A stretch of DNA of 64,000 nt from NCBI GenBank assembly GCA_030537195.1, contig JAUNOK010000001.1, positions 1-64,000 on the forward strand, given 5' to 3'. The first letter of the stretch is position 1. Each line of letters begins with the position of its first letter. Positions 1-18,560 of this stretch are shown piece by piece. Under the pieces are notes generated by a model. It saw only the letters and a list, made by a program, of their open reading frames with translations, had not been told where the DNA came from and made no database searches. The DNA comes from Eubacteriales bacterium. Lineage in GTDB: Bacteria > Bacillota > Clostridia > Lachnospirales > Lachnospiraceae. Both the position numbers and the translations under genes were made by a program.

Positions 1-627
1 AAAGGTAATGTTAAAGGATTTATTGTTTCTGAGATAGATGACTTGGCTTTTAATGGTTGTTCAAGTATAGAGATTCTTACATTACCAGATACAATTATGA
101 AAGTTGGTGAAACATCATTCTTGGAGATGGATAATTTACAGGCTGTCATATCTAAAGCTAAAGGAATTAATATAATTGTTACACAGAATGTAAAAATTGT
201 TACATCCAGAGATCAGTTAGATGATGGTCAGATAAATAATGATGATAATAAACCAACTTCATCTGATAATGGTTCTAATAATAATTCGGAACAAGTGAAT
301 AATGGAACAGATAATTCTTCAAGTAATTTGGTTGACTCTGCTGAAGGAATAATCGGAATTGATTCTAATAATGAGTCAGGAAGTATTGATATTAATGTTA
401 ATGAGACAAAGGCAGATGGAACTAAGGTAACAGGCGAAACAGTTTCTACAACAGACAATAAGAATGGTAATAAGGAAACATCTGCTAATTCTATCAATGA
501 AAAGACTCAGAATAAGACCACCAAGAAATCTTCAGCACCTAAGATTATCGCATACATAGTATGCGTAATTGTAATTATTGGTCTTGCGGCTGGTGCGATT
601 ATATTTATTAAGAAAAAGAGAAGATAA
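1..627 (+). CDS. BspA-type leucine-rich-repeat surface protein, C-terminal fragment
   Basis: The frame is open from base 1, so this is the 3' end of a gene that begins before the window. The first ~60 residues read like LRR_5/BspA repeats (phrases such as GCSSIEILTLPDTI and LEMDNLQAVI). A long N/S/D/T-rich linker follows, then one membrane helix near the C terminus (IIAYIVCVIVIIGLAAG) and a KKKRR cytoplasmic tail. There is no LPXTG motif, so anchoring is by the helix. Such proteins usually display repeats at the cell surface for adhesion. The next gene starts 3 bases after the stop, so it is probably cotranscribed with the kinase cassette. Fold assignment rests on pattern only. Confidence 0.75.
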   Translation, partial: KGNVKGFIVSEIDDLAFNGCSSIEILTLPDTIMKVGETSFLEMDNLQAVISKAKGINIIVTQNVKIVTSRDQLDDGQINNDDNKPTSSDNGSNNNSEQVNNGTDNSSSNLVDSAEGIIGIDSNNESGSIDINVNETKADGTKVTGETVSTTDNKNGNKETSANSINEKTQNKTTKKSSAPKIIAYIVCVIVIIGLAAGAIIFIKKKRR

Positions 628-630
628 GCT

Positions 631-1356
631 ATGTTTACAATACGGATTGCAGATACATTTATTCAGATTAATGAAAGATACCAATATATAAAGCAATATT
701 GCAGGAATTACATAGTTGATGATGTTACACCTGAGATGGTTATTGAAGTGAGTGATGAAGAGATTAATGCTGAGCAGAGTGACGAGTATGTGTGCTCTCC
801 CGATTATCTTGAAACACTTGCCGTATATAGAAAGATATGTGAACGCTTTGTTGATAAAGGAATTATTCTTGTACATTCATCTGTGCTTATGGTTGATGGT
901 GAGGCTGTTATGTTCCTTGCTCCGAGCGGAACGGGAAAGTCAACTCACACGAGATTGTGGTGTCAGGTGTATGGAGACAGGGTGACAATGATTAATGATG
1001 ACAAGCCTCTTGTCAGTGTAACAACTGATGACAATGGAGTGCATGTTAAAGTATATGGAACACCGTGGTGTGGCAAGCATGGAATTGAGAATAATATATC
1101 TGCGCCGGTTAAGGCATTATTCCTGCTTAAGAGAAATGAGACTAATGTGGCAAGGAAGCTTACTATACATGAAGCATTTCCATATGTGTTCAATCAGACA
1201 TATCGTCCGGATAATGCGGAGCTTATGAGAAAGACACTTATATTATCAAGGACAATGGCTGAGAATGTCGGATTGTTCGAGCTTGGATGTAACATGCAGG
1301 AAGAAGCTGCACATGTGGCTTACAGGGCAGCATATGGAGAAGAAGGAGAGAATTAA
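631..1356 (+). CDS. HPr-kinase-like serine kinase of a PqqD-linked cassette
   Basis: A 241-residue protein with a clear P-loop APSGTGKS at residues 97-104, a following INDDKP acidic motif (~121-126) and GTPWCGKHG (~143-151). These are the marks of the HPr kinase/PEP carboxykinase-like kinases found beside PqqD-like proteins, for example the kinase that phosphorylates the C terminus of the lasso peptide paeninodin. It lacks the usual HprK N-terminal domain, and no CcpA/HPr context is present here, so it is unlikely to be the catabolite-repression enzyme. It starts 3 bases after the LRR gene stop and ends 2 bases before the PqqD-like start, implying translational coupling. The substrate is unknown; a peptide is the best inference. 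Confidence 0.8.
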   Translation: MFTIRIADTFIQINERYQYIKQYCRNYIVDDVTPEMVIEVSDEEINAEQSDEYVCSPDYLETLAVYRKICERFVDKGIILVHSSVLMVDGEAVMFLAPSGTGKSTHTRLWCQVYGDRVTMINDDKPLVSVTTDDNGVHVKVYGTPWCGKHGIENNISAPVKALFLLKRNETNVARKLTIHEAFPYVFNQTYRPDNAELMRKTLILSRTMAENVGLFELGCNMQEEAAHVAYRAAYGEEGEN

Positions 1357-1358
1357 CC

Positions 1359-1625
1359 ATGAAACTGAAATCAGGAATTGTTATGGAAAAGACAGGAGAT
1401 GAATATATCGTAGTTGCTACAGGAGAGGCAGCCAAGTCTTTTAATGGAATTATAAGAAATAATAAGACAGCTAATTTCGTATTTGAACAGTTAAAGGAAG
1501 ATAAGACTGAGGAAGAACTGGTTGATGCACTTCTTGAGCGATATGATGTGAGCAGGGAAAAGGCACAGGCAGATGTTAAGGCTTTAGTTGCTAAGATAAG
1601 AGAGGCTGGACTTATTGATGGATAG
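1359..1625 (+). CDS. PqqD-like peptide chaperone
   Basis: An 88-residue protein with the PqqD-like winged-helix pattern: a short N-terminal beta segment (GDEYIVVATGEAAKSFNGIIRNN), then a helix ending TANFVFEQL, and EELVDALLERYDVS followed by a second recognition helix. PqqD-family (RRE) proteins bind leader peptides of ribosomally made peptides and present them to tailoring enzymes. Here it lies between a kinase and a peptidase with 2-base and overlapping junctions, so it probably guides a peptide substrate to one of them. No precursor peptide gene is visible in the window. Confidence 0.85.
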   Translation: MKLKSGIVMEKTGDEYIVVATGEAAKSFNGIIRNNKTANFVFEQLKEDKTEEELVDALLERYDVSREKAQADVKALVAKIREAGLIDG

Positions 1626-2082
1626 GGAAAAGCTCAAACCACTGTTCAAAGACGGGCATTATTACAGTGTTCCAAGAGGCGTGAGCATGTGGCCGTTGAT
1701 TAAGACACCTGATTGCGTTGTTCACATTGTTCCTGTTGACAGGAAACTGAAAAGATATGATGTTGCATTATATCACAGAGAAAGCACAGATCAGTATGTG
1801 CTTCATCGTATTCTTAAGGTAGAGGATGATTACTACATTTTTTATGGGGATAACTGCTGGCGTAAGGAGATTATTCCTAAGGATACGGTTGTCGGCATAG
1901 CTACTAAGTATTACCGCAAAGGCCGGTGGATTGACGCTGATGATATACGTCTTAAGATATATGCACATATATGGTGCGATGCGCTGCCGGTGCGTCGTGC
2001 GATTCTGAGATTGAGAGATGAAGCTAAGAAAGTATTAAGAAGAGTTAGAAAATTATGGACAAAGAACAGAAGCTCCAATTAA
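1618..2082 (+). CDS. Soluble S24/S26-type (signal-peptidase-like) serine peptidase
   Basis: About 154 residues. The motif RGVSMWPLI near the N terminus matches the serine box of S24/S26 peptidases (GxSMxP). VLHRIL further on has His at the position of the general base, as in SipW/Sec11-type signal peptidases, and YGDNCW matches the GDN box. There is no N-terminal membrane anchor, so it is probably cytoplasmic or membrane-peripheral. The ATG at 1618 is preferred over a TTG at 1615. It overlaps the PqqD stop by 8 bases and the ABC gene by 28. A role in removing a leader peptide before export is inferred from context. Confidence 0.8.
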   Translation: MDREKLKPLFKDGHYYSVPRGVSMWPLIKTPDCVVHIVPVDRKLKRYDVALYHRESTDQYVLHRILKVEDDYYIFYGDNCWRKEIIPKDTVVGIATKYYRKGRWIDADDIRLKIYAHIWCDALPVRRAILRLRDEAKKVLRRVRKLWTKNRSSN

Positions 2083-3755
2083 AGAAGATAGTTAAGAATC
2101 CAGCCATGAGCTGGATTTTTGGCGTGTCAGGAAAGTTAAAGCTGGGAGTGCTGCTTCTTGTGCTGCTTAATTCAGCAATATCAATAAGTGCGGTGGCATT
2201 TGCACTTGTGCTGAGGGAAGCAATCGACGGGGCAGTTTCCGGCAATAAGATGGTATTCCTTAAGTTCGTTATTATACTTGGACTTATTATGCTTGGGCAG
2301 ATTGCTGCGAGAGGCGTAATAAGATTCTTGGAAGAGTATGTACGTTCCGGCATGGAAAATGTTATTAAAACACGACTCTACGAAACTATTCTGTCAAGAA
2401 AATACAGCGCTATTACTGCATTTCACACAGGGGAACTGCTGAACAGAATTACTAATGACGCAGTTGTTGTGGCAGATGGGTTCGTACAGATTATTCCGGG
2501 AATTATTGCCATGCTTGTTAAGCTTGTTGGCGCGGCGGCAGTGCTTTTCGTGCTGGATTATAGATTTTCTGTGATATTCTTTGCCGGTGGTGGTCTTGTG
2601 CTTGTATTCACAACGCTGTTCCGTCGTGTTATGAAGAAGCTTCACAAGGATGTGCAGGCGGCTGATGGTGTGCTTCGTTCTTATCTGTCGGAGAATCTTG
2701 GAAGCCTTATGGTTCTTAAGACATTTGGCGCAGAAAGAAAGAGCATAGATACTTCTAAGCAGTACATGGATAAGCACAGATTCATGCGTATGAAAAGAAA
2801 CCGATTCTCTAATATATGTAATGTCGGTTTCGGACTTGTTATGAATGGCGGCTATATATTCGGTCTGTGCTGGTGCAGCTTCGGAATTCTGCATGGAAGT
2901 ATTACTTACGGAACGCTGTCGGCAGTGCTTCAGCTTGTTGACCAGTTGTGGGCGCCGCTTGCTAATATGACTGGCTATCTGCCAAAGTTCTATGGCATGC
3001 TCTCAAGTGCGGAGCGCTGCATGGAGCTTGAGTCTCTTGAGGAAGAGCATGTTGAGAGGCAGTTTAGCAGGGATTATTGCAAAGAGCTTTATAAGAACAT
3101 GACATCGATTGAATGTAAGAATATCACTTTCAGATATGAGGATGACATTATTCTTGAAAATGCTGATATATCTATTGGCAAGGGCGAGCTTATAACGATT
3201 ATGGGTAATTCCGGTGCGGGCAAGAGTACGCTTCTTAAGCTGCTTCTTGCTATATATGAGCCTGAAAAAGGAACGCTTGAACTTAAGACTGACAAGGAAA
3301 GTTATGCATTAACAGAAGAATACCGCAAGATGTTCGCGTATGTGCCTCAGGGCAATTTCCTTATGTCTGGCAATGTTACGAGTGCGATAGCTTCTCTTGA
3401 TGATACTAATGCTGACGTTGATATGGACAAGGTGAGGGCAGTTGCACATATTGCATGTGCAGACACATTTGTAGAGAAATTAGAGCATGGATATGACACG
3501 CTTATTGGTGAGCGTGGAATGGGCATCTCAGAGGGACAGGCCCAGCGTCTTGCTATCGCGAGGGCTTTGTACACGGATGCGCCTGTATTACTGCTTGACG
3601 AAGCAACTTCGGCACTTGATGAGCAGATTGAGAAGAAGGTGCTTAAGAATATAAGGGAACTTACGGATAAGACGGTTATTATTGTATCGCACAGAAAAGC
3701 AGTGCTTGAAGTATGTGACCGCTGCGTGGTATTGGAGGATAAACATTTTGAATAA
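2055..3755 (+). CDS. ABC exporter, fused membrane and ATPase domains
   Basis: 566 residues: an N-terminal six-helix exporter domain (~1-320) and a C-terminal nucleotide-binding domain. Visible motifs are Walker A GNSGAGKST (~383-391), Q-loop YVPQGN, a signature variant ISEGQAQR in place of LSGGQ, Walker B VLLLDEATS (~511-519) and the switch histidine in VSHR. It is a half-size type IV exporter expected to work as a homodimer. There is no C39 peptidase domain, consistent with a separate peptidase just upstream. It overlaps the genes on both sides, so it very likely exports the product of this cassette. Confidence 0.9.
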   Translation: MDKEQKLQLKKIVKNPAMSWIFGVSGKLKLGVLLLVLLNSAISISAVAFALVLREAIDGAVSGNKMVFLKFVIILGLIMLGQIAARGVIRFLEEYVRSGMENVIKTRLYETILSRKYSAITAFHTGELLNRITNDAVVVADGFVQIIPGIIAMLVKLVGAAAVLFVLDYRFSVIFFAGGGLVLVFTTLFRRVMKKLHKDVQAADGVLRSYLSENLGSLMVLKTFGAERKSIDTSKQYMDKHRFMRMKRNRFSNICNVGFGLVMNGGYIFGLCWCSFGILHGSITYGTLSAVLQLVDQLWAPLANMTGYLPKFYGMLSSAERCMELESLEEEHVERQFSRDYCKELYKNMTSIECKNITFRYEDDIILENADISIGKGELITIMGNSGAGKSTLLKLLLAIYEPEKGTLELKTDKESYALTEEYRKMFAYVPQGNFLMSGNVTSAIASLDDTNADVDMDKVRAVAHIACADTFVEKLEHGYDTLIGERGMGISEGQAQRLAIARALYTDAPVLLLDEATSALDEQIEKKVLKNIRELTDKTVIIVSHRKAVLEVCDRCVVLEDKHFE

Positions 3756-4851
3756 TGGAGAGTATCTTATCAGGCTTCTTGCAAATGTTGTGGCTGGCAA
3801 GCCGTTGCCTGAGCCTGACGATAATATTGACCTGTTAAAGGTGTATGAGATTGCTGAAAAACACAGTGTGCAGACAACGGCTTATTATGGTATTAAGAAG
3901 CTGCAATGTGCGATTCCTTCTGAGGCTTTAGGTAAATGGGAGGAAGCGCATCTGCGTGGGTTGTCTACCAGCATACGTTTTAAGGCGGAACTGAATAATG
4001 TGTGTGATGTGTTCACTAAGGAGAAGATTGTGCACATGCCGCTTAAGGGCAGCATAATTAAGGATATGTATTCATCGATTGATATGAGAACCATGTCGGA
4101 TATGGATATTCTTATTAAGCGTGAGGACGCGAAGAAGGTGCATGATATTCTTATTGGGATGGGGTACACATGTGAGATGTATGATATAAGTCATCAGGAT
4201 GTGTATTTCAAAGATCCTATATATAATATTGAGATTCATACATGCTTGTTTGATGATGGTGACGGGGTGACTTTCTATCGCGAATATGATAATATTCTAG
4301 ATAGGACGGTTACAGGAGATAATGAGTACGCACGCCTGATGACGGATGAGGATTTCTATGTGTATAATATTGCACATTTTGCGAAGCATTTTCAGCTCGG
4401 TGGCTCAGGAATACGTTCGGTTATGGATATGTATATTATGAAGAAGTCGCTTACTGGCATGGATATGGCTTATGTTAATGCTGAGTTCGCAAAGCTTGGG
4501 CTTAGTGATTTCTATACAAATGCATCGAAGCTGGTTGACTACTGGTTCGGAGATGGAGAACTTACTGCTGTTGTTAAGGATATGGCAGATTATATTCTTT
4601 CGAGTGGAACCTATGGCAATCTGCATAATGCATTTACGAATCAGCTTGAGAATAAGGGCAGATTCAGAATGTTTATGTACAATGCATTTCCACCGCTTAA
4701 CAAGATGCTGTATACATTTCCATTCCTGAAGAAAGTACCGTGGATGATGCCACTGTGTTGGATAGCAAGGTGGTTCTATGCGATATTTACTAAACCGAAG
4801 AATGTTGTTACTAAGGTGAAGATGTTCGCCAGGGTTAGTAAGGAAGTTTAA
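3748..4851 (+). CDS. Nucleotidyltransferase-family protein of the kinase/PqqD cassette
   Basis: 367 residues from a TTG start at 3748, chosen because GGAGG at 3734-3738 sits 9 bases upstream; the frame is open further upstream inside the ABC gene. The segment PLKGSIIKDMY...RTMSDMDILI (~98-122) is the LKG and SDxDIL signature of the uncharacterised nucleotidyltransferase family (NTP_transf_5). Members occur in lasso peptide clusters such as paeninodin, and beside exopolysaccharide genes. It overlaps the ABC gene by 8 bases and ends the cassette. It may add a nucleotide or sugar-like group to the peptide product; the actual reaction is not known. Confidence 0.8.
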   Translation: MNNGEYLIRLLANVVAGKPLPEPDDNIDLLKVYEIAEKHSVQTTAYYGIKKLQCAIPSEALGKWEEAHLRGLSTSIRFKAELNNVCDVFTKEKIVHMPLKGSIIKDMYSSIDMRTMSDMDILIKREDAKKVHDILIGMGYTCEMYDISHQDVYFKDPIYNIEIHTCLFDDGDGVTFYREYDNILDRTVTGDNEYARLMTDEDFYVYNIAHFAKHFQLGGSGIRSVMDMYIMKKSLTGMDMAYVNAEFAKLGLSDFYTNASKLVDYWFGDGELTAVVKDMADYILSSGTYGNLHNAFTNQLENKGRFRMFMYNAFPPLNKMLYTFPFLKKVPWMMPLCWIARWFYAIFTKPKNVVTKVKMFARVSKEV

Positions 4852-4870
4852 TAAGAGAAAGGGGAATTTT

Positions 4871-5830
4871 ATGAAGTATTCTAATGTTGTGGTTGCCGGA
4901 GGCGGAGTGCTGGGAAGTCAGATTGCTTTTCAGGCAGCATATTGTGGATTTAATGTAACTATATGGTTAAGAAGCGAGGGCTCTATTGGAAGAACCCAGC
5001 CTAAGATTGACCATCTTAAGCAGACTTATATTGATGCTATTGAGAAGATGGCGGAGGATAAGAATGCGTGGTGTGCAGGAATTGCAGATGAAGATACATT
5101 TGACAAGGAAGAATGTCTTAAGAAGGTTGAGAATGCATATGCTAATCTTAAGCTTGAACTTGATATGGCTAAGGCGGTTGCTGATGCAGACCTTGTGATT
5201 GAGTCTATGGCTGAGAATGAGAAGGACAAGATTGCTTTCTATGAGAAGCTTGCGCCACTTCTTCCAGAAAAGACTGTTATTGTAACTAATTCATCAACCC
5301 TTCTTCCATCGATGTTTGCAAAATATACTGGCAGACCAGATAGATATCTGTCATTACATTTTGCTAATTCTATATGGAAGAATAACACTGCTGAGGTTAT
5401 GACACAGGCTCAGACTGATGAGAAGTATTTTAATGAAGTTATGCAGTTTGCTAACGATATACGAATGATTGGACTTCCTGTAAGAAAGGAAAAGAGTGGT
5501 TATCTGCTTAATTCTATGTTGGTTCCATTCCTTCTTAGCGGACTTGACCTGTATGCTGCAGGTGTGTCTGACCCTGAAAGCATTGACATTGCATGGACAA
5601 GAGGAACAGGAGCTCCTAAGGGACCTTTCCAGATATTTGATACAGTAGGACTTAACACCGCATATAATATTGTTCATCAGTATCAGAGCGTTCCAGGATT
5701 ATTCTCACCACTTCTTAAGAAGATGATGATGCCATATAATTTCAAGAAGATGGAGGCTATTCTCAAGAAGTATATTGATGAAGGCAAACTTGGAATGTCT
5801 ACAGGAGAAGGCTTCTACAAATATAATTAA
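4871..5830 (+). CDS. 3-hydroxyacyl-CoA dehydrogenase family protein
   Basis: 319 residues with an N-terminal Rossmann dinucleotide site (VAGGGVLGSQIA) and the NAD-domain phrases DADLVIESMAEN and VTNSSTLLPS, followed by the helical dimerisation domain (SGYLLNSMLVPFL). The family oxidises L-3-hydroxyacyl-CoA with NAD, as in butyrate synthesis. The usual HFFNP catalytic-histidine region reads HFANSIW here, so the substrate may differ from crotonyl/acetoacetyl-CoA. GAAAGGGG precedes the ATG. It stands alone with no other butyrate genes nearby, suggesting a side role rather than the main butyrate dehydrogenase. Confidence 0.85.
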   Translation: MKYSNVVVAGGGVLGSQIAFQAAYCGFNVTIWLRSEGSIGRTQPKIDHLKQTYIDAIEKMAEDKNAWCAGIADEDTFDKEECLKKVENAYANLKLELDMAKAVADADLVIESMAENEKDKIAFYEKLAPLLPEKTVIVTNSSTLLPSMFAKYTGRPDRYLSLHFANSIWKNNTAEVMTQAQTDEKYFNEVMQFANDIRMIGLPVRKEKSGYLLNSMLVPFLLSGLDLYAAGVSDPESIDIAWTRGTGAPKGPFQIFDTVGLNTAYNIVHQYQSVPGLFSPLLKKMMMPYNFKKMEAILKKYIDEGKLGMSTGEGFYKYN

Positions 5831-5865
5831 GCTTATATTAATAAATGTTTTTAAGGACTGGTAAT

Positions 5866-6492
5866 ATGACGACTAGGGAAGAAGCACTTGCGTATGGACT
5901 TTCTTTTCCGGATACTTATCAGGAAGCGCCATTTCATGATGAGAACTGGCAGCTTGTAAGAGTTAAAGGATGCAAGAAAGCATTTTTATGGACATACGAG
6001 CGTAATGGATATATTAATCTTAATGTGAAGGTTTCACCTGAGTGGCGCGACCTATGGAGGAGTACATATTCTTCTGTAATTGCGGGCTGGCACCAGAATA
6101 AGGAACATTGGAATACTATTATTCTTGATGGAACTATTCCAGACGAAGATATTAAGCGTATGATTGCAGAAAGCTATGACCTTGTATCTGACAATCCGAC
6201 CAAGAGGATATACGAAGCTGTCAGGAAGATTCCGAGAGGACAGGTTGCAACTTATGGACAGATTGCACAGCTTGCTGGTGACAGGAAGATGGCGCGCGCA
6301 GTTGGCAATGCTCTTCACAAGAATCCTGACCCGTCTGGTATCCCGTGTTACAGGGTAGTCAATTCCAAAGGGGAACTTGCCGGAGAATTCGCATTTGGCG
6401 GAGCCTGGAAGCAGGCAGAGATGCTTATGGCAGATGGAATCGAGGTCGTTAACGGCAAGGTTGATCTGGATAAGTATGGGATGAAGATATGA
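5866..6492 (+). CDS. YjbR/MmcQ domain fused to an O6-alkylguanine-DNA alkyltransferase-like domain
   Basis: The first ~105 residues match the MmcQ/YjbR-like fold (EEALAYGLSFPDTYQEAPFH, then WNTIILDG). The last ~100 match the MGMT DNA-binding and catalytic domain (IPRGQVATYGQIA, MARAVGNALHKNP, IPCYRVV). The acceptor cysteine is present, but the classic PCHRV reads PCYRV, so the histidine that activates the cysteine is a tyrosine. The ATG at 5866 is preferred over 5845 because AAGGA lies 8 bases upstream. Likely a DNA alkylation damage repair or sensing protein. It ends just before a bidirectional terminator. Confidence 0.8.
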   Translation: MTTREEALAYGLSFPDTYQEAPFHDENWQLVRVKGCKKAFLWTYERNGYINLNVKVSPEWRDLWRSTYSSVIAGWHQNKEHWNTIILDGTIPDEDIKRMIAESYDLVSDNPTKRIYEAVRKIPRGQVATYGQIAQLAGDRKMARAVGNALHKNPDPSGIPCYRVVNSKGELAGEFAFGGAWKQAEMLMADGIEVVNGKVDLDKYGMKI

Positions 6493-6494
6493 TT

Positions 6495-6543
6495 AAAATA
6501 GTTTGGTATCTGTCATATATTGGAGATACCAAACTATTTTTAT
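6495..6543. terminator. Bidirectional terminator between alkyltransferase and GH140 genes
   Basis: A 17-bp perfect stem (AAAATAGTTTGGTATCT at 6495-6511 with its complement at 6524-6540) with a 12-nt loop. The A/T ends give a U-run in both directions, which fits its place between convergent genes. Confidence 0.9.
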
Positions 6544-6548
6544 GTATA

Positions 6549-7826
6549 TTATTTAATTAACAGAACTCTGTCTGTATCTTCGCCTTCAACTTTAGCGAAT
6601 TTCTTAGCTATGAAGGTATCTGAATTACATTTGCCAATATAGCTCTTAACACCGGTTACAGGACTCATCCACCACATGTCTTTTCCGATGTAATGATGCG
6701 TATCAAGTGTGAAATCATTTCCTAGATAATCGTATGCAATGAGGAATGTATCACCGGCAAATATAGCAACACGGTCGTGTTTCTCTTTCTGTCCTGATAT
6801 AAGTAATGAGTCATCGGCTTTTCCGTTAATAAAATCTACAGATTGCATAAGATCTTTAAGAAAATGCATCTGTCCGGAACCTTCGTGATGAATAGCCTCA
6901 TCCCAGTTGCATACAACACCATAGCTTACACCGTCATGACCGCCGGTATAGAATTGCATAACAGAGTTGTCGCCATATGTATGACCGCAGGCTCCTGCAA
7001 GAACAGACCAGTAAGCATATCTTCGAACATGCTTTGCAGTCCAGTAAGGCTCGCTTGGATCATGCAGACCCTGAATTATCCACTCATATGATGGCTCGGC
7101 ATCAAGAACTGGTTTATTGCTTATAGTTTGGTCATGTATAACATATTTCCAGTTATCTTCACCGTAGTAAGATGGATTGCCTGTATCATCCCATGCACCA
7201 AGATTACACTGGTCGTAGCGTCTGTGACCTGACTGGAACATGTTAAAGTCAAGCCAGTCATCATCAGGAAACCACATTGTTGATGAACATCTTCCAAATG
7301 GGTGGAATGTTATTAATTTGTCTGGTGTTGCAGACTTAAGATATGTACCTAATTTGCGATAAATGTTCTGGAAAGCGTCTGTTTCGGCTTTGATATCTCC
7401 GCCCAGTACCCATATTATATTAGAATAATCCTTATAACGGCTGGCAAGAAATCTGCCATAGTCCAATACATTTTCTTCTGTAATAACATTTGTCTTTAAC
7501 AGGCTTCCCCAGGATGGAAGAAGTGCCATATAAAGTCCCAAGTCATCCGCCATCTTAATGATACGGTCCACATGTTCCCAATATTCTTTTGTTCTATAGA
7601 TGCCGGCAGCACCCCAGTGCATACGGTTTACAGTTTCCATTCCTTCTGTTGAGTATATCAGAACCGCCTGAATTACATTGAAGCCCTTTTCGGCTCTGTT
7701 TCTCAGATATGTATATGCCTCGTCTTCAGTAAGATTGCCAAATATGAGCCATCCAGTGTCGCCAAGCCAGAAGAAAGGCTTGCCATCCTCTAACAGGTAG
7801 TGTTTGTTGTTGCTGATAGTAAGCAT
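6549..7826 (-). CDS. GH140-like (DUF4038) glycoside hydrolase, putative apiosidase
   Basis: 425 residues beginning with the DUF4038 pattern (HYLLEDGKPFFWLGDTGW, then a TIM-barrel-like body with NVIQAVLIY, IIWVLGGDI, PVLDAEPSYEW) and ending in the family's C-terminal beta domain (MWWMSPVTGVKSYIG). GH140 members remove apiose from rhamnogalacturonan II, and related DUF4038 proteins act on other plant glycans. There is no signal peptide, so it probably acts in the cytoplasm on imported oligosaccharides. The ribosome site GGAGG on the minus strand lies 10 bases before the ATG. It is monocistronic, between a terminator and a divergent gene. The exact substrate is not certain. Confidence 0.8.
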   Translation of the reverse strand: MLTISNNKHYLLEDGKPFFWLGDTGWLIFGNLTEDEAYTYLRNRAEKGFNVIQAVLIYSTEGMETVNRMHWGAAGIYRTKEYWEHVDRIIKMADDLGLYMALLPSWGSLLKTNVITEENVLDYGRFLASRYKDYSNIIWVLGGDIKAETDAFQNIYRKLGTYLKSATPDKLITFHPFGRCSSTMWFPDDDWLDFNMFQSGHRRYDQCNLGAWDDTGNPSYYGEDNWKYVIHDQTISNKPVLDAEPSYEWIIQGLHDPSEPYWTAKHVRRYAYWSVLAGACGHTYGDNSVMQFYTGGHDGVSYGVVCNWDEAIHHEGSGQMHFLKDLMQSVDFINGKADDSLLISGQKEKHDRVAIFAGDTFLIAYDYLGNDFTLDTHHYIGKDMWWMSPVTGVKSYIGKCNSDTFIAKKFAKVEGEDTDRVLLIK

Positions 7827-7922
7827 ATGATATTAACCTCCGAACATTCAAGATGGATATATTATAGCATAATTTACCCAAATGTTTTATAATAAAAATA
7901 ATTGTCAGAAACGGAGATTATT

Positions 7923-8114
7923 ATGTGGAAGATAAAACAGATATTTGACGGTGATTATGGGTGTGAAGAGCTGGCAGAAGGTCAGTCACCTAAGGTTTCT
8001 GTTACACTTGTTAATGAGAGTGGGCAGAAGAAGTATGTATATGTAGAAGACAAGTGGCTTATGGACAGAAGTCTTGATGAAGGTTCTGTATGGCCGGAGG
8101 ATATAGATGGGTAA
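7923..8114 (+). CDS. Small conserved-looking protein, 63 residues
   Basis: The ATG at 7923 follows CGGAGA with 6-base spacing; a TTG at 7902 lacks such a site. The product starts MWKIKQIFDGDYGCEE and contains a short beta-rich stretch (KVSVTLVNESGQKKYVYV). It has no signal peptide or membrane helix and no recognised domain. It overlaps the amidase lipoprotein gene by 8 bases, so the two are translationally coupled. Function unknown. Confidence 0.75.
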   Translation: MWKIKQIFDGDYGCEELAEGQSPKVSVTLVNESGQKKYVYVEDKWLMDRSLDEGSVWPEDIDG

Positions 8115-9105
8115 AGTGACAAGAATCATCTCAGTAGGTATGATGTTAACTGTACTATCAGCTATTATACTTGCGGGGTGTGGCAACAGACATTCTGGTA
8201 AAACAGGATTGAATAAATCGGACATTGCAGAAACTTTAAGCCAGACATCGGAATCAGAGAAAGATTCACAGATGAATTCTCAAAGTGAAGATAATACTGA
8301 TACAGAGATAACTGATGCAGAGACAGAAGATTCTGGAGTTCCGGTATATGAAGATATGGAACACATTTATATGAATACAACATGGGAATATGCAGACCAT
8401 TCGGCAATAAGTGATGGTTATGCTGTTCTATATAAAGCAGCAGGTGAGAGAAAGAATATTATAATTGGGGTCAATGCAGGGCATGGAACGGCAGGTGGTT
8501 CATCAGCAAGAACATTGTGCCATCCGGACGGCTCACCTAAGAGTACTGGAGGAAGTACGGCGGCGGGTGCAACAACAGCAACTGCTGTATCAGGAGGCAT
8601 GACATTCTATGATGGAACACCAGAAAGTGAAGTTACATTTAGAATGGCGCAGATTCTAAGGGACAAGCTTCTTTCACAGGGATATGATGTGCTGATGGTC
8701 AGGGACGGTGCAGACGTACAGCTTGATAATGTGGCGAGGACTGTGATATGCAACAATGTTGCGGACTGTCATATATCGCTACATTGGGATGGAGACGGAC
8801 TTAGTTATGACAAAGGCTGTTTCTATATTGCGGTTCCGGATGCAATTAAAGATATGGAGCCGGTTGCCACACACTGGCAGCAGCACAATGCACTTGGAGC
8901 ATCGCTTGTTAATGGGCTTGGTGATGTGGGTATGAAGATACATGGTTCAGGAAGTATGGCAATAGATCTTACGCAGACGTCATATAGCACAATTCCATCT
9001 GTAGATATGGAACTTGGAAATGCAAGTTCAGATCATAGTGATGAGACACTTGAAAATATAGCAGATGGTCTGATGGCGGGCATCAATGCATATTACGGGT
9101 ATTAA
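8107..9105 (+). CDS. N-acetylmuramoyl-L-alanine amidase (amidase_3) lipoprotein
   Basis: 332 residues with a lipoprotein signal peptide ending in LAGC (Cys25), then a ~85-residue S/T/E/D-rich linker. The amidase_3 domain runs from about residue 115: VNAGHG (zinc His), PESEVTFRMA (zinc Glu), ISLHWDGD (second His) and VDMELGN (catalytic Glu). It should hydrolyse the bond between muramic acid and the peptide stem at the outer face of the membrane. An inserted Gly/Ser/Thr-rich loop after the first His is longer than usual. It overlaps the small gene at 7923. Confidence 0.88.
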   Translation: MGKVTRIISVGMMLTVLSAIILAGCGNRHSGKTGLNKSDIAETLSQTSESEKDSQMNSQSEDNTDTEITDAETEDSGVPVYEDMEHIYMNTTWEYADHSAISDGYAVLYKAAGERKNIIIGVNAGHGTAGGSSARTLCHPDGSPKSTGGSTAAGATTATAVSGGMTFYDGTPESEVTFRMAQILRDKLLSQGYDVLMVRDGADVQLDNVARTVICNNVADCHISLHWDGDGLSYDKGCFYIAVPDAIKDMEPVATHWQQHNALGASLVNGLGDVGMKIHGSGSMAIDLTQTSYSTIPSVDMELGNASSDHSDETLENIADGLMAGINAYYGY

Positions 9106-9136
9106 ACAATCAAACAAAAACATAAGGAGATCAATT

Positions 9137-9901
9137 ATGGATAAGAAAACACAGATTATAGCAGTTGCAGGAAAAGGCGGAGTTGGTAAGACTTCTTTAG
9201 CGGGAGTTATTGTAAAGCTTCTTGTTGAGGCGCATCCTGATAAGAAGATACTTGCGATAGATGCTGATCCGGCTGTCGGACTTTCTACAGTGCTTAATGT
9301 TGATGTAGATAAGACTATAGATGATATAAGAAAAGAAGTAATCAAGAATGTTGAAGGCGGAGATACCAAGACAGCTGTGGAGCTGCTTGGAGAAGCCAAA
9401 TACGAGATAATGGATGCTGTTGTTGAGCAGGATGGATATGCATTTATCGCGATAGGAAGACCTGAGACAGCAGGCTGTTACTGCAAGATTAATTCATATC
9501 TTAAGGAAGTTATCACAATGCTTTCAGACAAGTTTGATTATGTTGTAATTGACGGTGAAGCTGGAATTGAGCAGATTAACAGAAGAGTTATGGAGAAGGT
9601 GACACATCTGCTGCTTGTTACTGATGCGAGCAAGAAGGGATGTCAGGTTGTGCAGACAATCAAGAAAGTCGCAGACGAGCTTGTAATGTATGACCGAATC
9701 GGAGTTATCGCCAACAGAATACCTGATATGGAAGTTGCAAAGCTTATGGATATCGGTGACCTTGAACTGCTTTCAGTAATACAGAGCGATTCCAAGCTTG
9801 CACAGGCAGATGTTCTTGGTGAAAATGTATTTAATCTCCCAGATGATGCAGTAATTGTTAAGGGTGCAAAGAAGGCACTTGTTAATATCGGAATATTGTA
9901 A
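9137..9901 (+). CDS. CooC-like MinD-family ATPase
   Basis: 254 residues from the ATG at 9137, preceded by AAGGAG with 7-base spacing. It has the deviant P-loop GKGGVGKT (residues 12-19) and IDADPAVGLS after strand 2. The CxC pair in AGCYCKINS (Cys114, Cys116) is the metal-binding signature of CooC-type nickel chaperones for carbon monoxide dehydrogenase. No carbon monoxide dehydrogenase gene is in the window; the following genes encode 2-hydroxyacyl-CoA dehydratase-like proteins. It may therefore deliver metal or energy to that system. The family call is strong, the partner is inferred. Confidence 0.85.
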   Translation: MDKKTQIIAVAGKGGVGKTSLAGVIVKLLVEAHPDKKILAIDADPAVGLSTVLNVDVDKTIDDIRKEVIKNVEGGDTKTAVELLGEAKYEIMDAVVEQDGYAFIAIGRPETAGCYCKINSYLKEVITMLSDKFDYVVIDGEAGIEQINRRVMEKVTHLLLVTDASKKGCQVVQTIKKVADELVMYDRIGVIANRIPDMEVAKLMDIGDLELLSVIQSDSKLAQADVLGENVFNLPDDAVIVKGAKKALVNIGIL

Positions 9902-9946
9902 TTCGCAAGTCAATGAGAATCATTACATACTAATTCGGAGGTAAAT

Positions 9947-11140
9947 GTGAAGGATTTAGCTAATCTTTATTATTTTGAGAAGCTGTTGGAGGATGTGAAT
10001 AACGACCTTGTAAGACAGGCACAGGCGAAAGGTGATATTGCAATCGGTGCTGTCTGTTTTCAGATACCAGAGCCGCTTATTAATCTGCCGGGAAGTTTTT
10101 CGGTGAGACTGCGTGCTCCACGTACCGGTTCTATAGAGATGGGAACATATTACATGAGCAGTATGCTCTGTGAGGGATGTCGTGCAATATTGGAGAGAGC
10201 AATCGAAGGTGGATTCAACTTTCTTGACTGCATAATTGCGCCGGATGCATGTGCGCAGATGAACAGATGTGTAGAGAATATTGAAAGACAGCACCTTATC
10301 GAGAAAGAGAAATTCTTCGTGGAATATTCAGATGTTCCGATGAAGAACGATGAGACAGCATTAAGACATTATGTTAAGCAGATGAGGCTTCATGTGCTTG
10401 AGCCGCTTAATAATGCATATGGAATAGATATATCGGATGATGCACTTAGAAAGTCAGTAGAATTGCAGAACAAGATAAGCAGGCTTATAAGAAGTATCGG
10501 TGATTATAGAAAAGAAGATAATCCAAGAATTACAGGATATGAATTCGCAGTGCTGTGTCTTGCAACCTACTGCTGTCCGAAAGAGGCACTTGTAGAGAAG
10601 CTCGAAGAGACACTTGAGGAGCTTAAGACAAGAGAACCTGATAACAAATGTAATTACAGGGCAAGGGTTGTAATGGTCGGTTCAGAGATTGATAACCCTG
10701 AGCTTATAAAGCTTGCTGAGGAAGCAGGTGCGCTGGTTGTGGCTGACAGATTCTGTTTTGGTTCACTTCCGGGAAGAGATGAGATTATTCTTAACGATAC
10801 GGAAGATGTTCTTACACAGATATGCAGACAGTATATGAAGTGGGGACAGTGTCCAAGATTCATGAATACAGAAAAGATTATCGAGAGACAGGAATATGTT
10901 GATGCGATAGCTAAAGAGTATAAGGCAGATGGTCTTATATATGAGCAGATTAAATTCTGTGATTACTGGGGCTATGAGAGGGCTTCGGCATTCCATGTCA
11001 TGAAAGAGAAATACGGATATCCGGTTCTTTCAATCGACAGACCTTATGCTGTCGGAACTTCGGGACAGTTAAGAACAAGAATACAGGCATTTGTTGAGAG
11101 CCTTGAGATTAAGCGTATCAATGCAGGAAGGAAATTATAA
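9947..11140 (+). CDS. 2-hydroxyacyl-CoA dehydratase family subunit (HgdB/FldC-like)
   Basis: 397 residues from a GTG start, supported by GGAGG 5 bases upstream. It carries the family's iron-sulfur-type cysteine pattern (MLCEGCRAILERA, APDACAQMNRC) and a second alpha/beta domain with ARVVMVGSEIDNPELIKLAEEAGALVV. In this family two such subunits hold [4Fe-4S] clusters and, once reduced by an ATP-driven activator, dehydrate 2-hydroxyacyl-CoAs; relatives reduce benzoyl-CoA or bear double-cubane clusters. It is separated from the next subunit by 2 bases. The substrate cannot be read from sequence. Confidence 0.82.
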   Translation: MKDLANLYYFEKLLEDVNNDLVRQAQAKGDIAIGAVCFQIPEPLINLPGSFSVRLRAPRTGSIEMGTYYMSSMLCEGCRAILERAIEGGFNFLDCIIAPDACAQMNRCVENIERQHLIEKEKFFVEYSDVPMKNDETALRHYVKQMRLHVLEPLNNAYGIDISDDALRKSVELQNKISRLIRSIGDYRKEDNPRITGYEFAVLCLATYCCPKEALVEKLEETLEELKTREPDNKCNYRARVVMVGSEIDNPELIKLAEEAGALVVADRFCFGSLPGRDEIILNDTEDVLTQICRQYMKWGQCPRFMNTEKIIERQEYVDAIAKEYKADGLIYEQIKFCDYWGYERASAFHVMKEKYGYPVLSIDRPYAVGTSGQLRTRIQAFVESLEIKRINAGRKL

Positions 11141-11142
11141 AT

Positions 11143-12681
11143 ATGTCTAAGAATATAGGAAGCGAGCCACTCGGCAGATTCTATACTGGCAAGAAGCCAA
11201 AGAGAAGAAGAGAATGGCGCGGATTTAAAGATACATGGTACGACTATGTAAGATGGCTTGGATACTGGAAGACTTTAATTACATTTATAATAAAACCTAA
11301 TAATATGAAGGGGTTCTTCAGATACCGCTGGATGATTAATTATCTTGCACTGCCTGATTTCATGGACAGACATACCGAAGGTATGAGAGGAACACAGCTT
11401 AGAATGGCACATCAGGCGCTGGGACTTATTGTTACCGATATATGCGGGATGCTTGGACAGATATTCAAGGCGGACCCGGCTATCGGCAATGACAAGAAGC
11501 TAAATAGTAAGATTGTCCTTTTTGATGAAAATATGATGAGTACCCTGATGGGCGGATTTCCTAACCTTACATGGTTATCAGTGGAGGTTCCTGCGGTGTA
11601 TACAAGCTCGATGATGTCACAGGACGGAGTGAGTTATTATGTTGATGTTACACATCAGTATGGCGTACCGTCAGACGTATGTCCTATGCCGGCAGCGGAG
11701 CTTGGAGTTGCGCTGGCTGATGATTTTCCGCTTATAGGCTGTTGTGCGGTGCAGTGTAATACGACATGTGACGGAAGCCTTATGGGTAACGGGATTGAAG
11801 CGAGGTCATTTAAGATTCCTACATTTCAGCTTGCTGTGCCTATAAGACACAGACAGGAAAGTGTGCAGGAGTATGCGGCAGAAGAGGTTGTTAATGCAAT
11901 CCATTTCATAGAGGAGCAGACTGGTGAGAAGTTCGACTGGGACGCATTCTTTAAGAGTATGAAGAGATTTAATGCTGAGACAGAGGAATTCCTGGAGTGG
12001 ATGGAGATTTCCAAGACAGATTATCCTCAGGTTATGGGTGTAACGCTTGCACTTTACAGATATGGCGTGTATCAGGCTGCCGGTGGAAGAAATCAGGCAT
12101 TCCTTGATATGGATAAGAAGCTTACTAAGATGGCACTTGATGCATATAAGAAAAAGGAGATGGCTGCGAAGGAGTACCGTCACAGAGCAATGACATGGGG
12201 CGTTCAGGCTGCATATTACACAGCACTTCCAATCTGGCTTCTTAACTGTTGGGGCGTTGTGACTATTGCGGATATGTTAAGCATGGTGTCTACAGAGATG
12301 GTCAACACAGAGGATAAACATCAGGCAATGTTAGACCTTGCATATCTGTATGAGAACATGATTATGAGAAACCGTTCTAACGGTGGTTATGAGACAGGCG
12401 TTGAGGCACTCTGGCGCTTCTGCGAAATGTTTAATATTGATATAGTAATCATGTATGTTCATATGGGCTGCAAATCAATGTCAGGTTATCATGGCATATT
12501 TGAGGAAGAAGCAAGAAAACACGGAATACATTTAATATGGGTGACACACAATCTTATGTGTCCAGAGGATGGAACGAGAAGAGACATGAGAACAGAGATT
12601 AACAGATATATGAGAACTGTTTTCAGGGAAGAACCGCTTGATCCGTCACTTGAGGATTTTGATGATTCCAAGAGCTGGTAA
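11143..12681 (+). CDS. 2-hydroxyacyl-CoA dehydratase family subunit (HgdA-like)
   Basis: 512 residues, longer than typical ~430-residue dehydratase subunits because of a basic N-terminal extension (KKPKRRREW). Cysteines cluster in IGCCAVQCNTTCDGS and around IVTDICGML. The C-terminal half has MYVHMGCKSMSGYH, the last conserved-cysteine region of the family. AGGAAGG precedes the ATG. It pairs with the 9947 subunit and the activator at 12723. The unusual length and the basic N terminus suggest a specialised member rather than a standard lactyl-, glutaryl- or phenyllactyl-CoA dehydratase. Confidence 0.78.
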   Translation: MSKNIGSEPLGRFYTGKKPKRRREWRGFKDTWYDYVRWLGYWKTLITFIIKPNNMKGFFRYRWMINYLALPDFMDRHTEGMRGTQLRMAHQALGLIVTDICGMLGQIFKADPAIGNDKKLNSKIVLFDENMMSTLMGGFPNLTWLSVEVPAVYTSSMMSQDGVSYYVDVTHQYGVPSDVCPMPAAELGVALADDFPLIGCCAVQCNTTCDGSLMGNGIEARSFKIPTFQLAVPIRHRQESVQEYAAEEVVNAIHFIEEQTGEKFDWDAFFKSMKRFNAETEEFLEWMEISKTDYPQVMGVTLALYRYGVYQAAGGRNQAFLDMDKKLTKMALDAYKKKEMAAKEYRHRAMTWGVQAAYYTALPIWLLNCWGVVTIADMLSMVSTEMVNTEDKHQAMLDLAYLYENMIMRNRSNGGYETGVEALWRFCEMFNIDIVIMYVHMGCKSMSGYHGIFEEEARKHGIHLIWVTHNLMCPEDGTRRDMRTEINRYMRTVFREEPLDPSLEDFDDSKSW

Positions 12682-12722
12682 GAAGTGTGGATGCTGCTGG
12701 TGCGGCAGGAAAGGATAAAAGA

Positions 12723-13517
12723 ATGAAATATTTCGGTGGTTGTGACGCAGGAAGTACATATACCAAATGCGTAATTATAGATGAGGATGGAAAGATAGTA
12801 TCTGCAGTTACTAAGAGAAGCAGAATTAACCCTGTGCTTAGTGCAAAGGATGCGCTTGATGAGGCTGTAAGCCAGGTTGATGGATTAAACAGCGCAGAGG
12901 AACTTACATATCTTATTGGTACAGGTTATGGAAGAAACAAAGTGCCATTTGCAGATGAGAATATATCAGAGATTAGCTGCCATGCTATGGGAGTTCATGT
13001 GACTGACCCTTCGGTTAAGGCAATAATTGATATCGGTGGTCAGGACGTCAAAGGTATTGCAATTGACACTGACGGAACTGTTCTTAATTTTGCGATGAAT
13101 GACAAATGTGCAGCAGGAACGGGAAGATTCTTTGAATCAATGGCAAGAGCATTTGAGATGTCGTTAGATGAATTTTCTAATCTGTCTCTTACAGCGAAGA
13201 ATGTGATTCCAATAACAGCACAGTGTGCGGTGTTTGCAGAGAGTGAGGTTATCTCATTGGTAGGTGAGGGCAAGCCTATGGAAGAGATAGCAGCAGGAAT
13301 ACAGCTATCAGTTGCCAAGAGATGCTTTGTTATGGCTAAGAAAGCCGGAGCAGTTGACAGCGTCACACTTACAGGCGGCTGTGCCAAGAATGAAGGTTTA
13401 AAGAAGGCAATAGAGAAGGTGCTTAAGATTAATGTAGTTGACCTTCCGACAGACCCACAGCTTATGGGCGCATTAGGTGCTGCAGAATATGCAAGACAGA
13501 AGGGAAGAAACGTATGA
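12723..13517 (+). CDS. 2-hydroxyacyl-CoA dehydratase activator (HgdC/BadF-type ATPase)
   Basis: 264 residues of the ASKHA fold: GGCDAGSTYTKC (phosphate 1), IDIGGQDVKGI (phosphate 2) and TGGCAKNEG (adenosine site). NDKCAAGTGRF (Cys ~129) and TAQCAVFAESE (Cys ~168) supply the two cysteines that bind the bridging [4Fe-4S] cluster in the homodimer. Such activators inject one electron into the dehydratase at the cost of ATP. The ATG at 12723 follows AGGAAAGG. Length and motifs are complete. It overlaps the next small gene by 4 bases. Confidence 0.9.
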   Translation: MKYFGGCDAGSTYTKCVIIDEDGKIVSAVTKRSRINPVLSAKDALDEAVSQVDGLNSAEELTYLIGTGYGRNKVPFADENISEISCHAMGVHVTDPSVKAIIDIGGQDVKGIAIDTDGTVLNFAMNDKCAAGTGRFFESMARAFEMSLDEFSNLSLTAKNVIPITAQCAVFAESEVISLVGEGKPMEEIAAGIQLSVAKRCFVMAKKAGAVDSVTLTGGCAKNEGLKKAIEKVLKINVVDLPTDPQLMGALGAAEYARQKGRNV

Positions 13518-13705
13518 TAGTATTAAAAGTACTGGCTATTATAGCAATCGTGTTTGTTGCACTTTTTCTTCTCACACTTGTTATATATTTCTTTAATCTT
13601 GATATGAAGTTTGCAGCAGCATTAATAAAGCCTCTTACTGCATATTATAACTGGTCAAAGAACAGGCGCGAGGCAAAGAAACAGCAGGAAAAGCAGAAAG
13701 AATGA
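13514..13705 (+). CDS. Small single-span membrane protein of the dehydratase locus
   Basis: 63 residues with one strong hydrophobic helix at ~3-28 (IVLKVLAIIAIVFVALFLLTLVIYFF) and a highly charged C-terminal tail (NRREAKKQQEKQKE). It begins in an ATGA overlap with the activator gene, so it is coupled to it. Possibly a membrane tether for the redox complex. No homolog recognised. Confidence 0.75.
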   Translation: MIVLKVLAIIAIVFVALFLLTLVIYFFNLDMKFAAALIKPLTAYYNWSKNRREAKKQQEKQKE

Positions 13706-13729
13706 TGACAGGAAAGGCAGAAACAGCCG

Positions 13730-14443
13730 ATGAATTTATATGATGCTGAAATAGAAAAACTAAAATGTATGCTTGAAAGCCACAATGTAAAGAAACTGCC
13801 ATTACAGAAAGAATGGGAGATGACGGATAAAGAGAATCTTATCCTTAAAAGTGAGATGGCTTATGAGCTTGGAGGCGGAAGCAATGCGGCAGTGAGTGCC
13901 ATCGCATTTACACAGGATGAGGAACTTGTACCAGAAGATGCAGTGTATCTGGTGGGGGATGACCTGTGTGAGATTAAGAATGATATCTCATATGCGAGAA
14001 TAACTGTAATCAGGCTGGACAGCGAATATATTAAGAAGCATGATGATAATGCATTGTATGCTTCAATGAGGGCAACTGATTATGTGCGATATCATGCATT
14101 TCCTAAAGGATATATGATGAGAATATCGGCAGTCAGGGAAAGAGAACCTGTAAGAGTAAGCAGAGAAGCAGTTTCACAGGGCATTAATTTTGCGGCTGTG
14201 GGGCTTGGACTTATTAATGCTTACAGGAAACGCCCAGAGGTTGAGGCTGTAAGTATATATTTTGTTACTGACCAGAAGACTGATTATGCATTTTTAAAGA
14301 ATGAGGCACACAGATGTGAGCAGATAACCGACTCGCTAAACCATATATTTAACGGTCTTACAATGGACTGTTCAACATGTTCAAGCCGGGAGTTATGCGA
14401 TGAAATCGATGGGCTCAGGGAATTACACAAGAAGCAGATATAG
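13730..14443 (+). CDS. Cys-motif protein of the dehydratase locus, possibly acetyl-CoA-synthase-related
   Basis: 237 residues, soluble. Notable stretches are MAYELGGGSNAAVS, SREAVSQGINFAAVGLGLINAY and VSIYFVTDQKTDYAFL, with a C-terminal cysteine cluster CSTCSSRELC (CX2CX4C) that could bind an iron-sulfur cluster or zinc. The body has a faint resemblance to part of the CO dehydrogenase/acetyl-CoA synthase beta subunit, which would fit the CooC-like gene upstream; this is a weak impression that profile comparison should test. AGGAAAGG precedes the ATG. It is the last gene of the run from 9137. Confidence 0.6.
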   Translation: MNLYDAEIEKLKCMLESHNVKKLPLQKEWEMTDKENLILKSEMAYELGGGSNAAVSAIAFTQDEELVPEDAVYLVGDDLCEIKNDISYARITVIRLDSEYIKKHDDNALYASMRATDYVRYHAFPKGYMMRISAVREREPVRVSREAVSQGINFAAVGLGLINAYRKRPEVEAVSIYFVTDQKTDYAFLKNEAHRCEQITDSLNHIFNGLTMDCSTCSSRELCDEIDGLRELHKKQI

Positions 14444-14450
14444 CGATTTC

Positions 14451-14467
14451 TGACGAAATGTGTCGAA
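14451..14467 (+). promoter_or_regulatory. Tandem Spo0A-like boxes upstream of the HD-GYP gene
   Basis: TGACGAA at 14451-14457 and TGTCGAA at 14461-14467 both match the Spo0A box TGNCGAA in the same orientation, exactly 10 bp apart. They lie 17 bp upstream of the -35 element at 14484, a position suited to activation. Confidence 0.6.
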
Positions 14468-14483
14468 AATAGTACTATTTTGA

Positions 14484-14512
14484 TTGACGCATGTATTGGA
14501 TTGATATATTAT
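14484..14512 (+). promoter_or_regulatory. Sigma-A-type promoter of the HD-GYP gene
   Basis: TTGACG at 14484-14489 and TATTAT at 14507-14512 with a 17-bp spacer. Transcription would begin near 14519, about 60 bases before the start codon. Confidence 0.65.
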
Positions 14513-14577
14513 TAACTTATATCAGAAGAGACGAAACAATGTAATAGATGCATGAGATGCTCGGGAAGGGGCTTGTT

Positions 14578-15672: not shown

Positions 15673-15684
15673 TTAAGCATTAAT

Positions 15685-15717
15685 AAAGCGGAGAGATTAA
15701 AAAGTCTCTCCGCTTTT
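15685..15717. terminator. Bidirectional terminator
   Basis: A 12-bp perfect stem, AAAGCGGAGAGA (15685-15696) with its complement at 15705-15716, and T-runs outward on both strands, between convergent genes. Confidence 0.92.
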
Positions 15718-15721
15718 GATT

Positions 15722-17203: not shown

Positions 17204-17309
17204 ATATTCCTCTTTCTGTGCATAGAGCACTTGTAATAATCTATCCTATAATAACATATTCTGGAAAGTTAGCAAGGAGAGGATTGATTGTTTACATACA
17301 AATGTTTAC

Positions 17310-18305: not shown

Positions 18306-18483
18306 AAGCCCTCCTGATATGTCTGGAATATAGTAATATTCTGATTATTTATTAAGAAATAATACATCAAATGTGGTGGGGTGTATATAAGGTATCATTA
18401 TAATTTACTAAAAGTTAATGATATTCGCAAAAGTAATATCCTATATGGGTAGAAACTATAAAATTCACATATTTTTACTCATA

Positions 18484-18500
18484 TTCGACATTATTCGACA
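18484..18500 (-). promoter_or_regulatory. Tandem Spo0A-like boxes upstream of the binding-lipoprotein/hybrid-kinase operon
   Basis: TTCGACA at 18484-18490 and again at 18494-18500 are the reverse complement of the Spo0A box TGTCGAA, with 10-bp phasing. They end 22 bases before a short leader reading frame. The close position may mean repression, or activation from overlapping -35/-10 sites. No good promoter hexamers were found here. Confidence 0.55.
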
Positions 18501-18521
18501 CAGGAGGGGAGTATTATTTAT

Positions 18522-18560
18522 ATGAAACATATGAGCAGACCCTTTTGGAGGATAGAATGA
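18522..18560 (+). CDS. Possible 12-residue leader peptide
   Basis: ATG at 18522 reads MKHMSRPFWRIE then TGA; the stop overlaps the lipoprotein start as ATGA (18557-18560). AGGAGGGG at 18502-18509 lies 12 bases upstream, longer than ideal. The lipoprotein gene has its own GGAGG (18547-18551) inside this frame, so translation of the leader could tune or couple its expression. It may also be chance. Confidence 0.35.
   Translation: MKHMSRPFWRIE

Follow-up and report, generated by a model that had tools for sequence, protein, structure and literature searches.

We examined the five genes at positions 631 to 4,851 of a 64,000-nucleotide stretch of DNA (the window) that opens contig JAUNOK010000001.1 of a Lachnospiraceae genome, Eubacteriales bacterium assembly GCA_030537195.1. 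They encode, in order, an HprK-like kinase, a PqqD-like protein, a soluble signal-peptidase-like protein, an ABC exporter and an NTP_transf_5 protein (Table 1), and they very probably constitute a clostridial maturation operon (K-B-S-D-N) for Linear Polyphosphorylated Peptides (LPP), the product of which would work together with cell-surface proteins. All five open reading frames (ORFs) are open and full length on one strand, with a 2-base gap between the kinase and PqqD genes and brief overlaps between the later neighbors, so the tight packing described in the initial annotation holds, as do the identities it gave to the PqqD protein, the exporter and the NTP_transf_5 protein, each of which is borne out by Pfam. 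The peptidase gene may start at TTG 1615 or ATG 1618, and the NTP_transf_5 frame, listed from TTG 3682, more likely starts at the TTG at 3748, which is preceded by GGAGG. Immediately upstream, a leucine-rich repeat (LRR) gene has its stop codon 3 bases ahead of the kinase start. The window begins inside this gene at base 1 of the contig (C20), so that the upstream side of the locus falls beyond the contig edge; the remaining protein fragment has a Ser/Asn-rich linker followed by a C-terminal membrane helix and KKKRR. An Rfam scan of bases 1-20000 of the window gave no match.

Table 1. Genes at the start of the window and the evidence for their assignment
Feature	Position	Strand	Evidence
LRR (BspA-type) surface protein gene, 3' end, cut by contig start	1..627	+	LRR_5 5.8e-5, below cut-off
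HprK-like P-loop kinase (LppK-like), 241 aa	631..1356	+	ORF; NCBIfam scores below cut-off
PqqD-family recognition element (LppB-like), 88 aa, N35 + D72	1359..1625	+	Pfam PqqD PF05402 1.9e-17
Soluble S26 signal-peptidase-like putative leader peptidase (LppS-like), 155 aa	1615..2082	+	Ser24, His64; NCBIfam below cut-off, PDB
MsbA-like ABC exporter without peptidase domain (LppD-like), 566 aa	2055..3755	+	ABC_membrane 4.1e-26, ABC_tran 2.2e-26
NTP_transf_5 protein (LppN-like)	3748..4851	+	PF14907 1.6e-46

Kinase, recognition element and peptidase

The kinase has no match above cut-off in Pfam, and a profile comparison with the PDB returned weak P-loop matches only. Its nearest NCBIfam models are ScmC (1.4e-8; 34.4 bits against a cut-off of 125) and HprK-related kinase A (0.0046; 16.1 against 200), and because both scores fall below cut-off, the label HPr-kinase-like used in the initial annotation is a distant one. 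His-82, Gly-100, Lys-103 and Asp-124 are invariant across 12 aligned sequences. The PqqD-like protein, the only PqqD match in the whole genome, likewise stays below the NCBIfam thresholds of PqqD_rel_X (20.9 bits, cut-off 35) and SCM_PqqD_rel (19.0, cut-off 100). The HPr-rel-A and SynChlorMet systems (TIGR04352, TIGR04353, TIGR04249 and TIGR04248) thus have a related kinase and PqqD-like protein, with all scores below the curated cut-offs.

As a RiPP (ribosomally synthesized and post-translationally modified peptide) recognition element (RRE), the PqqD-like protein carries Asn-35 and Asp-72, which are invariant in 12 aligned sequences, the window included, and align by manual count with Asn-33 and Asp-70 of LppB. 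In LppB these residues hold the Pro and Tyr of the leader, and the RREs of paeninodin clusters have Gly at the Asn position; the Asn/Asp pair is not peculiar to LppB, being frequent in lasso and PQQ RREs as well (PMC13381572).

The peptidase has no match in Pfam. It resembles archaeal-type signal peptidase I (NCBIfam 3e-5, below cut-off) and signal peptidase I/SEC11 chains in the PDB, and because of this likeness we assign it to family S26 (SipW/Sec11 type) and not to S24; of the earlier S24/S26 description, the soluble S26-like enzyme stands and the S24 alternative is dropped. Ser-24, His-64 and Asp-79 are invariant in 11 aligned sequences, the first two at the expected spacing and Asp-79 as a candidate third residue (the catalytic residues of LppS are Ser-29, His-68 and Asp-93; PMC13381572). 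An AlphaFold2 model of the protein has a mean predicted local distance difference test score of 86.4.

Comparison with LPP operons and lasso peptide clusters

LPPs are a RiPP family of Bacillota described by Popov et al. in May 2026 (PMC13381572). In the operon of Paenibacillus alginolyticus, lppA is followed by lppK-B-S-D-N, which encode an HprK-like kinase, a discrete RRE, a SipW-like signal peptidase, an MsbA-like exporter and an NTP transferase, and the five enzyme genes of the window correspond to lppK-B-S-D-N in both identity and order, with the kinase and peptidase labels taken from scores below cut-off. The likeness extends to the RRE residues, which are of the YxxP-binding type, to the SipW-like putative leader peptidase, to the absence of a cyclase and, in relatives of the window, to short precursors with a Ser 18-19 residues past the Tyr. 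When the P. alginolyticus precursor was produced in a Bacillus subtilis host, LppK placed one to four phosphates on core Ser-3 and LppS removed the leader, a cleavage that in vitro requires LppB, while deletion of lppN caused no visible change (PMC13381572). The initial annotation had proposed a distinct phosphopeptide or nucleotidylated peptide export system; a non-lasso phosphopeptide agrees with these experiments, but the cassette is not an unnamed kind, having been a known one since May 2026. Its further suggestion, that the S26-type enzyme removes the leader, fits LppS of the homologous operon by analogy.

By the same analogy, the PqqD-like RRE would bind the YxxP motif of a short precursor, the kinase would phosphorylate a Ser about 19 residues after the leader Tyr, and the soluble S26 peptidase, aided by the RRE, would remove the leader to leave a short core. 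These three steps were demonstrated by others for the Bacilli homologue and are carried over to the organism of the window. We infer two further steps: the ABC exporter would release a short peptide whose C-terminal tail is free and whose modified Ser lies close to the N terminus, and the NTP_transf_5 protein would extend the phosphate with a further group, perhaps a sugar, PsmN of pseudomycoidin having been linked to hexoses on phospho-Ser (PMC9266682). What the present analysis shows directly is which genes are there, their order and their signature residues, together with the precursor family of relatives and the genes to which it is linked.

The kinase, the PqqD protein and the NTP transferase could also recall a lasso peptide cluster or its remnant, since the paeninodin and pseudomycoidin clusters (PMC9266682, PMC7533575) likewise comprise an HprK-like kinase, a PqqD-like B1 protein, an exporter and a nucleotidyltransferase. 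The window, however, lacks a macrolactam synthetase and a transglutaminase-like B2 peptidase, has an S26 peptidase instead, and carries Asn/Asp in its RRE in place of the Gly (G42) and Gln (Q79) that PbaB1 uses for WxxP leaders. The absence of a cyclase and of a transglutaminase-like peptidase, noted earlier for the cassette, extends to the whole genome, in which PF13471 (the B2 peptidase) has no match and the sole Asn_synthase gene lies on a contig other than C20 and is housekeeping by appearance. Nor did an AsnB-like ORF occur in any of 80 relatives' loci (0/80, using a single housekeeping AsnB sequence as query and no positive control). The missing B2 peptidase, the lack of a second Asn_synthase and the RRE residues led us to reject a lasso remnant, and a paeninodin-like origin of any kind is scarcely credible.

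Precursors in related genomes

Relatives were gathered with the kinase alone, in a 195-genome panel of related genomes and as the best 80 of at least 584 confirmed relatives (the named loci). The kinase is present in 51 of the 195 panel genomes at E ≤ 1e-3. Although no such grouping was required for selection and contig ends truncate many of the 80 named loci, the cassette recurs among them: kinase, PqqD and S26 genes lie on the same strand within 7 kb in 53, all five genes are present in 20, and 15 have the exact order of the window. The five-gene grouping across relatives is more than chance.

ORFs starting with YxxP in these relatives revealed a family of tiny proteins with the leader MKxxYxxPEMEVIEFExEDVITTSG and a short variable tail, for which neither Pfam nor NCBIfam gave a credible match. 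We collected 107 distinct precursors over 176 loci (45 came from loci selected by their kinase, the other 62 from loci retrieved on the strength of a precursor hit), ranging from 25 to 72 aa, with 100 of them at 30-60 aa. Of the 107, 93 have the leading Tyr, 71 a Pro at Y+3, 85 an Asp at Y+14 and 81 a Ser at Y+19. Given that the published LPP acceptor Ser sits at Y+18, as counted from the paper's numbering, the acceptor in these precursors is likely to be the Ser at Y+19. The statement in the initial annotation that no precursor is visible holds for the window, whereas relatives do have small precursors, often elsewhere in the genome.

A profile built from 17 precursors (A3) matched 11 of the 195 panel genomes at E ≤ 1e-3, all of them among the 51 kinase-positive ones (Fisher 1.6e-7, or 3.8e-5 after removal of the four seed genomes), and gave no match at this threshold in the other 40. 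This test was repeated with all 51 kinase-positive genomes, an earlier version having used a kinase threshold picked after the list had been viewed. A larger profile of 76 sequences (A4), applied to the genomes of 49 of the 80 named loci, matched 45 of the 49 at E ≤ 1e-3, one of them nine times; eight genomes had contributed to A4, none of them among the four misses, so that 37 of the 41 others match. The fetched stretch itself contains a precursor (E ≤ 0.01) in 32 of the 80 named loci, or 21 of 69 non-seed loci, and none in the other 48; reversed sequences gave none. Four genomes belonging to a single family (G129, G169, G178 and G188) have the kinase-PqqD-S26 triad next to housekeeping-looking genes and the precursors on other contigs, with 6-11 matches per genome at E ≤ 1, of which 2-5 reach E ≤ 1e-3.

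Carriers of the system include Faecalibacterium prausnitzii, Coprococcus catus and Ruminococcus flavefaciens. The F. prausnitzii genome has three precursors of the clostridial leader type with Gly-/Cys-rich cores, two of them downstream of the kinase (L134:12167-12807; L274:131-289). On a short metagenomic contig labeled Synergistaceae, five tandem precursor paralogues stand immediately before the kinase (L081:685-1336). Nine loci of distant kinase relatives (L050, L052, L053, L054, L058, L060, L063, L065 and L067) encode a radical SAM-looking protein of 346-415 aa (Cys motif by eye). Most of them also encode a PqqD-like protein, and they contain larger precursor-like ORFs rich in Gly and Cys and, in some cases, very large secreted proteins of up to 2755 aa; these clusters may be a sister group with radical chemistry.

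Possible surface partners and the search for a peptide in the window's genome

The precursors of relatives are often preceded by genes for large secreted proteins, with secretion judged from an N-terminal hydrophobic stretch by Kyte-Doolittle and not by a trained predictor. Among the 103 precursors that are clear of contig edges, 47 follow an ORF of at least 250 aa with such a stretch at a distance of no more than 130 bp, compared with 144 of 2168 control genes from the same loci (p 1.3e-25); 8 more follow an ORF without a hydrophobic stretch and 9 an ORF open at the edge of the fetched sequence. These upstream ORFs, 64 in all, are separated from their precursors by a median of 18 bp. Nine of the coupled secreted proteins were scanned for domains, giving LRR_5, pectate lyase, transglutaminase and lectin/glycosidase-like matches in one each, DUF6273 in two (one with InlB-type repeats) and no match in three. 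A C-terminal domain profile made from ten secreted proteins matched 27 of 534 ORFs with a hydrophobic N terminus, 18 of the 27 standing directly ahead of a precursor, a figure that is partly circular because the profile came from ten such proteins. The 13-sequence version of this profile (A6) has no convincing match in Pfam.

A third partner was found in 34 loci in the form of 34 anchored low-complexity proteins, stalk-like lipoproteins of which 14 end in ELP[FVL][VI]P and a few further residues. In some loci the lipoprotein and the precursor share this tail. Their ends are nearly alike in L269 (DDGLNWSPLTPI and DDGLEWSPLTPI) and in L213 (DEDGWTVIIVKP and DEDGWTTIIVKP), and identical tails stand on both partners in L270 (PIELPLVPLR), L215 (EYELPFIP), L093 (ELPFVPA) and L074 (IELPVIPI), with L103 a weaker case. 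Summed over the 27 lipoprotein-precursor pairs that share a strand and lie no more than 3 kb apart, the tail score was 699, against 470 ± 34 for shuffled pairs (0/2000), and five pairs rank first of 34 in tail match. The sections of the LPP paper seen here contain neither the coupling to surface proteins nor the tail sharing, its main text being without the terms clostridi, surface, lipoprotein, ruminococc, leucine-rich or dispersed (PMC13381572), and open-licence literature, mostly at listing level, gave no other recognizable description of such precursor linkage.

Since many precursors are coupled to secreted proteins and some share a tail with a lipoprotein, we suggest that a surface partner reads the peptide tail, as anchor, cap or signal, and on balance we favor the view that the product of the clostridial branch works with cell-surface proteins. 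This link fits the window, where the LRR gene is joined to the kinase gene and the same contig encodes a 128-aa lipoprotein-like ORF (C20:253856-254242; L298:9856-10242) with a lipobox-like start, a low-complexity body and the end KPDPIELPFVPAY (...IELPFVPAY). The strict tail motif occurs once in the six-frame-scanned DNA of this genome and not at all in its reversal. Profile A6 matches one protein of the genome twice (1.0e-16 and 5.8e-9), on contig C22. Near C22:23385-24125 (L286/L288), both copies are carried by what is by eye a papain-like secreted protein. The surface side of the system thus seems to be present in the window's genome.

The intimate junction with the LRR gene, which ends 3 bases before the kinase, could also mean that the cassette modifies the LRR surface protein itself and no small peptide. 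We regard this as highly improbable: the kinase and peptidase are cytosolic and the target would be secreted, and relatives have YxxP precursors, on which the LPP operon acts.

Within the window, scans for the YxxP motif gave chance-like matches only, and a profile search gave no match. No precursor was found beside the C20 lipoprotein, and used as bait, A6 led to no precursor-like ORF behind the C22 protein, which is followed by a gene resembling those for exopolysaccharide sugar transferases. A DNA pattern for MK(K/N)xYxxP gave 5 matches in the genome and 5 in a backwards control; among the loci read, one match began a 315-aa frame and another a 12-codon frame, and a script gave no in-frame peptide for the rest. 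A search with PF13306 for a second contig end that might continue the LRR gene also failed, as none of 18 matches lies beside a contig end except the window's own. The genome's own peptide seems to be missing, diverged or hidden behind the contig edge.

Loss of the precursor, with the intact LPP cassette a relic in this lineage, must be weighed here. In the nearest relative by kinase identity (60-61%; L033/L076) the cassette has decayed: the kinase and the NTP_transf_5 protein are truncated, the retrieved region lacks matches to PqqD, S26 and ABC proteins, and the genome yields no precursor match. Along with the failure to find a precursor in the window's own genome, this makes such a loss possible. 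We nevertheless consider a relic unlikely, since the five window ORFs are open and full length, the tail-bearing lipoprotein is retained and the contig edge conceals the upstream side of the LRR gene.

Several further observations weigh against an LPP operon with a surface-directed product. A4 found no precursor in the window's genome at E ≤ 10, nor did a six-frame scan of 1.23 of its 2.57 Mb. With the RRE profile, lasso TbiB1 scores best (2.7e-9), and LppB (6.1e-6) and the paeninodin-type PbaB1 (7.9e-6) come out level; gene content and residues, and not RRE similarity, are consequently the grounds for filing the operon under LPP. The clostridial leader departs from the published YxxPxVLxHQxIxFETxxS (PMC13381572). 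No long ORF lies close upstream of 39 of the 103 precursors, 20 of the 27 lipoprotein-precursor pairs have no clear tail match, and the window's LRR protein does not match the C-terminal domain profile of the relatives' secreted proteins. LPPs as published differ further in that clostridial precursors are often scattered and coupled to large secreted proteins, with the tail common to a lipoprotein in some loci, and in that no capsule locus was seen at the window and no precursor was found in its genome. With its own leader type, its dispersed precursor genes, their pairing with surface proteins and a tail repeated on lipoproteins, the clostridial system is a variant of LPP that is worth following.

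A bolder proposal is that these LPPs are docking tags at the cell surface, the short C-terminal tail (such as ELPFVPx or DDGLxWSPLTPI) being bound by the co-encoded large secreted protein and also displayed by the stalk-like lipoprotein, with the NTP_transf_5 enzyme perhaps attaching the mature phosphopeptide to a surface glycan via the Ser-phosphate. We put this forward as speculation that is more apt to prove wrong than right by a wide measure. If it were true, LRR, beta-helix and lectin-like proteins would be kept attached to gut Clostridia by a single short linear code, and one central enzyme set would serve many scattered protein-peptide pairs.

Together these data bring to light a family of tiny genes without a credible Pfam or NCBIfam model, and the position of its precursors beside large surface proteins hints at a job for LPP peptides. 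The linkage of precursor and secreted protein, the shared tail and the single enzyme set for scattered precursors make that role testable by deletion and binding experiments, and the clostridial variant is worth following because it offers a test of what LPPs do. With carriers among common bacteria of the gut and rumen, it could add a mechanism of surface assembly or signaling there.

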